Of a DNA stretch of 64,000 nt, positions 44,003-44,666 are shown one piece after another. Origin of the DNA: Synechococcus sp. BIOS-U3-1. Its GTDB lineage: Bacteria > Cyanobacteriota > Cyanobacteriia > PCC-6307 > Cyanobiaceae. Where the stretch lies: contig NZ_CP047936.1 of the NCBI RefSeq assembly GCF_014279975.1, positions 2,108,001-2,172,000 on the forward strand. The letters run 5' to 3'. Every line of letters starts with the position of its first letter. The stretch's first letter is position 1. Made by a program: the position numbers and the translations under genes. Under the pieces are notes generated by a model that was not told the origin of the DNA, did no database searches, and saw only the letters and a list, made by a program, of their open reading frames with translations.

Positions 44003-44016
44003 GTATCAACGCGTAC
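44003..44016 (+). promoter_or_regulatory. NtcA-type binding motif upstream of glnB
   Basis: gtatcaacgcgtac is a perfect GTA-N8-TAC. A partial -10 box, taatgg, lies 24 bases further on at 44041, near the 22-base spacing of NtcA-activated promoters, and would place a transcript start about 15 bases ahead of the small gene at 44068 and about 275 bases ahead of glnB. glnB is an NtcA target in other cyanobacteria. Confidence 0.75.
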
Positions 44017-44067
44017 ATCCGCGAAAGCATCGGCGAGCCGTAATGGGTTCACGATTGAGGCTTCTTC

Positions 44068-44295
44068 ATGGATCTCCGCTTGCTCGCTGAAGGCCCTTCC
44101 TTCCGGTTGGTCCCCAACAGCGTTCATGGAATCCTCTGGCTTCAGACCCATTTCGAATCCGAGCATTGGGAGCTCCTCTCCCAAGGTCACGTGATCGTGA
44201 ATCGAGTCGACGCACAAACACTGATGTTTGATGCCTCCGAAGCCGGCCTGAACCTGAATCCGCTGCCTTCTCTGTCCCCTGTTCCACACGCCTGA
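44068..44295 (+). CDS. Small protein upstream of glnB
   Basis: The 75-residue product MDLRLLAEGPSFRLVPNSVH and onward has a compact-looking core (GILWLQTHFESEHWELLSQG; VIVNRVDAQTLMFDASEAG). I do not recognise it. It sits between the NtcA-type motif and glnB, 32 bases before the glnB ATG, so it is probably the first gene of the same nitrogen-responsive transcript. Confidence 0.65.
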   Translation: MDLRLLAEGPSFRLVPNSVHGILWLQTHFESEHWELLSQGHVIVNRVDAQTLMFDASEAGLNLNPLPSLSPVPHA

Positions 44296-44327
44296 GCTCT
44301 TAGCTTTCCCAAAGCCGGATACCAGCA

Positions 44328-44666
44328 ATGAAAAAAGTCGAAGCGATCATCCGCCCCTTCAAGCTTGAAGATGTCAAGCTTGCCTTGGTGAATGCTGGAA
44401 TCGTTGGCATGACCGTGAGCGAAGTCCGCGGTTTCGGTCGACAGAAAGGCCAGGTTGAGCGCTATCGCGGATCGGAATTCACAGTGGAATTCCTGCAGAA
44501 ACTCAAGATCGAGGTGGTCATCGACGACGGTCGCGTTGACACCGTTGTTAACGCCATTGCAGAAGCTGCGAAGACCGGTGAAATCGGTGACGGCAAGATC
44601 TTCATCTCGCCGGTGGACACCGTGGTTCGAATCCGTACTGGCGATCGGGACGGATCAGCTCTTTAA
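44328..44666 (+). CDS. glnB: Nitrogen regulatory protein P-II
   Basis: The 112-residue trimeric signal protein senses 2-oxoglutarate and ATP/ADP and in cyanobacteria controls NAGK, PipX and other targets. Features are [20 protein letters not shown], the T loop [20 protein letters not shown] with Ser49 (the residue phosphorylated in freshwater Synechococcus), the B loop [10 protein letters not shown], and the C-terminal [17 protein letters not shown]. The sequence is near canonical. Confidence 0.98.

Follow-up and report, generated by a model that had tools for sequence, protein, structure and literature searches.

A conserved small gene of picocyanobacteria lies between a putative NtcA-activated promoter and the PII gene glnB

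A 75-codon gene of Synechococcus sp. BIOS-U3-1 and the glnB (PII) gene that follows it probably form a bicistron that is activated by NtcA and encodes an effector of nitrogen limitation. Both genes lie in a window of 64,000 nucleotides (contig NZ_CP047936.1, positions 2,108,001 to 2,172,000 of the forward strand), taken from a genome that is a single contig of 2.71 Mb. The small gene (44068–44295, + strand) belongs to an uncharacterised picocyanobacterial family, and glnB (44328–44666, + strand; PF00543, 109.7 bits, cut-off 25) is the sole PF00543 match reported in the genome, where one NtcA gene exceeds the cut-off. Upstream of them lie, in order, a glutamine-riboswitch-like element, a DUF4278 gene and an NtcA-type box, with queF and an FtsJ/S4-domain gene flanking the whole array on the - strand. 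The initial annotation had proposed that the small gene is the first member of an NtcA-controlled glnB transcript. Comparison across relatives supports this proposal through the fixed spacing of box and -10, the gap before glnB, selection on the small gene and the presence of an NtcA gene; from these sequence data we infer NtcA binding, joint transcription of the two genes and a response to nitrogen.

In the proposed mechanism, the box would be the upstream half of a class II type NtcA-activated promoter. Nitrogen limitation would raise 2-oxoglutarate, NtcA with 2-oxoglutarate would activate the promoter, and one RNA starting near 44051 would carry the 75-amino-acid gene and then glnB. The small protein and PII would be made together from this RNA, and the small protein would most likely act by binding another protein of nitrogen metabolism. 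Binding a protein is described as the usual mode of action of small cyanobacterial regulators in the available text of PMC7760959. NtcA control of glnB itself is not new. In nitrogen-starved Synechococcus WH7803, PMC9430850 describes glnB as up about 2-fold and as having a putative NtcA-regulated promoter; PII protein is given there as not significantly changed, though the discussion speaks of more PII. In azaserine-treated Prochlorococcus SS120, PII is reported as lower (1.35-fold, table value 0.08) in the available part of PMC5451487.

The perfect box that had been placed 312 nt ahead of the glnB ATG (44328) was confirmed on the + strand at 44003–44016 (GTATCAACGCGTAC, a perfect GTA-N8-TAC). 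The -10 had been called imperfect, with a spacing of 24, because TAATGG was read as the hexamer; CGTAAT (44039–44044, + strand) begins 22 nt after the box, and its TAAT is conserved. This hexamer matches TATAAT at 4 of 6 positions and does not match the strict TAN3T consensus. Class II geometry, as used in the available text of PMC9430850, puts the predicted transcription start at the box centre plus 41.5, that is, at 44051 on the + strand and 17 nt before the ATG of the small gene. The predicted leader is as short as foreseen in the initial annotation, with its length revised from about 15 to 17 nt. Together, the box and the Pribnow-like -10 mark a putative NtcA-activated promoter with a putative NtcA-binding site.

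By count, the bare motif is weak evidence and not above chance. GTA-N8-TAC occurs 3 times in the window against 0.70 expected, a number reached by 3 of 100 shuffles, and 104 times genome-wide against 661 for the backwards control, so that the motif is rarer than its control. A box followed by N24 and TAAT is found at a single place in the 2.71-Mb genome, the small-gene locus; this count is no more than chance would give, because the backwards control has 0 such places on one strand and 2 on the other. The case for the putative promoter rests on the place and conservation of the box, not on its count. A second perfect GTAN8TAC in the window (GTAACCCTCGATAC, 11027–11040) lies just ahead of a - strand ORF (9668–11017) that appears ammonium-transporter-like by eye.

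Conservation was assessed in 94 family loci, which gave 87 distinct upstream regions after removal of repeats of identical upstream sequence. GTN10AC lies 63–79 nt before the small-gene start in all 87, the invariance of GT and AC being built into the construction of the alignment and the value of 79 coming from a locus with a mis-set start (L095, ACC). At exactly 22 nt from the box, nnTAAT is found in 67 of the 87 regions, and a loose -10 pattern passes 79, including 12 with variants such as CAAT, GAAT, TACT and TAAA. The remaining eight comprise three with TAAT one base further (L026, L037 and L128), three with TATA (L102–L104) and two that deviate (L086 and L121). Columns that played no role in the choice of alignment carry T, A, A and T in 76, 82, 83 and 80 of the 87 regions, and the G two bases past TAAT, in a column likewise without a role, is present in 82. 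Within the genus, the box is a perfect GTAN8TAC in 16 of 24 glnB-linked loci, that of the window included, and GTN10AC in the other 8. The motif is therefore conserved in close relatives, so that one of the two refuting conditions named in the initial annotation, a lack of such conservation, does not hold. At the same place, the box of genera g9, g18 and g40 was read by eye as reversed, as would be expected of a site for a dimeric protein more than of an RNA motif. Box and -10 spacing were also seen in 7 of 12 further loci (L218, L219, L220, L223, L224, L226 and L227) and not in the other 5 (L216, L217, L221, L222 and L225), which include two of the three loci linked to a second PII gene (see below). 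The arrangement resembles cyanobacterial NtcA class II promoters (GTA-N8-TAC at about -40.5, Pribnow-like -10) in the box, the -10 spacing and the place ahead of a nitrogen gene; it differs from them in a -10 that reads nnTAAT rather than strict TAN3T, and in the strong conservation, within this set, of C and A in the left half of the box.

Just upstream of the box, a DUF4278 small gene of 71 amino acids (43783–43998, + strand; PF14105, 42.8 bits, cut-off 25.3) is preceded by the glutamine-riboswitch-like element (RF01739; 43649–43721, + strand), which scores 29.5 bits (E = 8e-4), below the gathering score of 35. Two RF01739 hits were listed in the genome from the 150 of 307 first-look candidates that were scored, both just ahead of a DUF4278 match; the genome has four DUF4278 matches, one with a stop. 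The other riboswitch-like hit and its DUF4278 match (G000:C1:1471422-1471682) have a perfect GTAN8TAC just ahead. A riboswitch-like element was found in all 20 of the DUF4278-bearing relatives chosen (38 such regions), with 8 over the gathering score and a weakest E of 0.11. Associations of the glutamine aptamer with DUF4278 and of DUF4278 with IF17 have already been reported, the domain covering the N-terminal part of this glutamine synthetase inactivating factor (available sections of PMC6316151). The pair in the window is thus like the known glutamine riboswitch with DUF4278 (gifB/IF17 type) and adjoins the small-gene locus upstream; unlike the known pairs, it is immediately followed by an NtcA-type promoter and glnB.

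Over the NtcA -10, hairpins are stronger in regions that have DUF4278 upstream (mean z -3.3 in 38 regions) than in those that lack it (-0.5 in 49 regions), a difference whose P value of 9e-9 is overstated, the rows being related. The pattern suggests that, in many relatives, the terminator of DUF4278 overlaps with the promoter that follows it. It might also be read, together with the 104 occurrences of the bare motif per genome, as a sign that GTA-N8-TAC is a chance match or part of an RNA element of the DUF4278 transcript, with a hairpin around TAAT. We consider this extremely unlikely: the spacing of box and -10 is kept without DUF4278 or a hairpin, and ahead of glnB alone, and the window's own hairpin lacks significance (z -0.5). 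The idea that the main signal is a leader hairpin was likewise rejected, as the hairpin tracks the presence of DUF4278 and does not reach significance in the window, where a hairpin read by eye failed the shuffling test. In L118, L111, L080 and L093–L096, the -10 of the following promoter lies in the loop of a terminator-like hairpin, in most cases with DUF4278 upstream.

The same promoter type occurs where the small gene is absent. Thirty glnB loci without a linked small gene were reduced to 28 by removing G062 and G037, in which the small gene lies 108 and 69 nt ahead of glnB; L151 gave no start. Of the 28, 15 have box-N22-TAAT (12 loci) or box-N22-GAAT (3 loci) no more than 200 nt from glnB, and because these gene-less loci keep it, the promoter looks like glnB's own. 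The small gene, for its part, looks as if it sits inside an older NtcA-glnB unit, between promoter and glnB in most carrier lineages. Several of the leaders without the small gene (L138–L141, L147, L150, L154 and L157) share, as read by eye, a CTGAGAGA-like stretch ahead of glnB.

The search for the 75-residue protein beside glnB elsewhere, suggested in the initial annotation, found this arrangement in 24 of the 28 genomes of the genus that carry the family, and in 33 of 59 inspected outside it. In these 24, glnB follows the small gene directly; in the other 4 no PII gene was found alongside, one of them being cut by a contig end. The 59 genomes outside the genus were chosen by genus among matching genomes (47 + 12), and glnB follows in 33 (counting G031 as linked, with a gap of 39), a second PII gene in 3 and neither in 23. 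Counted by genus, glnB follows in 23 of 29 and the second PII in g30 (3 of 4 genomes), and a PII gene was not found beside the small gene in g5, g9, g18, g31, g40 and one g30 genome. The second PII of g30 (L216, L222 and L224) is divergent, with 47–52% identity to GlnB; both copies tested score 93 bits against PF00543, and the three genes start 27, 27 and 105 nt downstream of the small gene. No member of the small family adjoins the second PII gene at ten other such loci, which come from ten genomes.

Across loci, the small gene and glnB are co-directional and separated by 6–108 nt. The gap in the window contains no promoter-like or + strand terminator-like site, the promoter scan being of low power (0.2 expected). 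It is well conserved among six loci, those of the window and of the five relatives closest to it, and may hold a local element; all six have in it a small stem, GCTTT-CCC-AAAGC or a variant; in other congeners the gap sequence differs. The conserved gap and its stem speak for a reading in which glnB is driven mainly from a promoter in the small gene or the gap, leaving the NtcA promoter to serve the small gene only. This reading is unlikely, as no sigma-70-like site was detected on either strand of 43560–44700 (again by a low-power scan), the gap is not kept in other congeners, and the same promoter type stands directly ahead of glnB in the 15 gene-less loci. Joint transcription of both genes from the NtcA-type promoter remains the preferred explanation.

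Substitution patterns indicate that the 75-amino-acid ORF is a real gene under purifying selection, with dN/dS of 0.12–0.44 against seven relatives and saturated dS in three more comparisons. The closest named records with the protein are marine Synechococcus (83–85% identity) and Prochlorococcus. Within the genus, 28 of 31 genomes have the gene, including all 24 of the more complete. A profile search of family genomes at least 80% complete found it in 208 of 300 (171 of 238 of the more complete) and gave no match in 92; class-wide, 76 of 388 genomes gave a match, and a single hit from outside the family was dropped for its four stops. Also dropped were L041, a Sphingobacteriales MAG with 40% identity over 47 residues and, in our reading, no intact ORF, and L170–L172, which match only the first 15–24 residues of a query that starts ahead of the conserved start. 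Thirteen residues are invariant in 19 diverse members (M1, D2, G21, W24, L25, Q26, H28, F29, W34, G40, D55, A56 and G60). A short ORF directly ahead of glnB, across a short gap, could be a mere leader that sets glnB translation in cis and whose product is inert. We regard this as very unlikely in view of the constraint at the protein level, the paralogues elsewhere with promoters of their own and the phage copies without glnB in partial stretches.

The window protein has no match in Pfam or NCBIfam. Pfam and PHROG matches among the 19 members (best E of 0.011 and 0.073) are weak and scattered and were judged to be chance, as was the best PDB sequence match (E = 0.15). A structure model built from 13 sequences (pLDDT 84, pTM 0.66) predicts a compact fold of b-b-a-a-b-a order, which has no PDB match at E of 0.001 or better. 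A second fold comparison gave as its best hit the N-terminal domain of T4 UvsW (Z 5.8, rmsd 4.0 over 69 residues), possibly a mere common arrangement, and a comparison with viral models gave a 62-amino-acid uncultured phage protein (best E of 1.9e-3); no function was drawn from any of these matches.

The promoter type is also shared by paralogues that lie away from any PII gene. Those of one class (L125, L127 and L128) lie after urease alpha and a glutamine amidotransferase gene (by Pfam on L127), and near DUF1028-like and asparagine-synthetase-like genes (by eye); those of another (L126 and L131) lie near a Fur-family gene (by Pfam on L126). In a 90-row tree, which rests on 75 columns and leaves many forks unresolved, the unlinked paralogues group together (100/99). 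The designation of nitrogen-response protein, putative as it is, gains strength because these paralogues share the promoter type, with one class beside urease genes, and because the gene precedes a second PII in three genomes.

PII is the first candidate for the target, since the small gene is found next to PII genes of two kinds. The small protein may partner directly with PII or with the PII-PipX-NtcA chain, as a clade-specific counterpart of PirA or PipX, a serious possibility that we nevertheless lean slightly against. On its side are the glnB genes that follow in 23 of the 29 other genera inspected and the second PII that follows in 3 of 4 g30 genomes, while the glnB of G148 lies elsewhere, so that the link follows PII-type genes and not one chromosomal place; moreover, PirA and the inactivating factors are reported as absent from marine picocyanobacteria in the available text of PMC8092223 and PMC6316151. 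It is countered by the genera g5, g9, g18, g31 and g40, where no PII gene lies alongside, by the paralogues beside urease genes or a Fur-family gene, and by the partial phage stretches, in which no glnB was found. The unlinked, paralogous and phage copies suggest room for another partner, or for action without an adjacent PII gene. An effector that binds some protein of nitrogen metabolism is thus the form in which we favour the bicistron.

The protein is like NirP1, PirA, PirC/CfrA, PipX and IF7/IF17 in being a small cyanobacterial protein tied to NtcA or PII; it differs from them in lacking a Pfam or NCBIfam match and in having its gene ahead of glnB. Identity with NirP1, whose 485 homologues all have one Cys and three Trp according to the available text of PMC10907346, was rejected, as the 75-amino-acid protein has no Cys and has Trp only at 24 and 34. 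PirA is reported as absent from marine picocyanobacteria (PMC8092223, available text). More broadly, the available parts of PMC8092223 and PMC6316151 report these organisms to be without several small nitrogen-tuning proteins and describe their regulation of glutamine synthetase as unclear. The small gene is a good candidate for a missing piece of picocyanobacterial nitrogen control and, as it encodes a conserved protein under the putative switch of PII, with paralogues and phage copies, offers a concrete gene for functional study. No prior account of it was found in the literature listings and text sections searched; its nitrogen response is not claimed to be unreported.

Five IMG/VR cyanophage contigs carry the small gene. 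In the three T4-like contigs (L165/L167, L168 and L169) it lies between the RegA block and Hsp20-purM, the neighbours being assigned by PHROGs on L167 and L168 and through near-identical ORFs on L169. These copies group with genus g14 (100/97), and those of L166 and L208 sit on long branches whose placement is uncertain. The 14 phage loci examined, all of them partial contigs, yielded no glnB. Cyanomyoviruses are known to carry NtcA sites (PMC3037559, in the portion available). A wider reading would make the family a picocyanobacterial companion of PII-type proteins, lodged between the NtcA promoter and glnB, standing in for the regulators reported missing, dispersed to nitrogen loci such as urease in the form of paralogues under NtcA control, and acquired by cyanophages on more than one occasion as a means of steering the nitrogen metabolism of the host; we offer it tentatively, with more doubt than belief. 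The phage copies are like cyanophage auxiliary genes in that a host-like gene occurs in phage contigs, once between the D1 gene and talC, but differ from the known ones in having no PHROG match, in the window protein and the L208 copy alike, and no match in 50,697 phage records searched with four queries. In L166, the small gene lies among phage head and tail genes. In L208, it is flanked by the photosystem II D1 gene on one side and by talC, 23 nt downstream, on the other, and the same stretch holds an ORF that resembles, by eye, a high-light-inducible protein.
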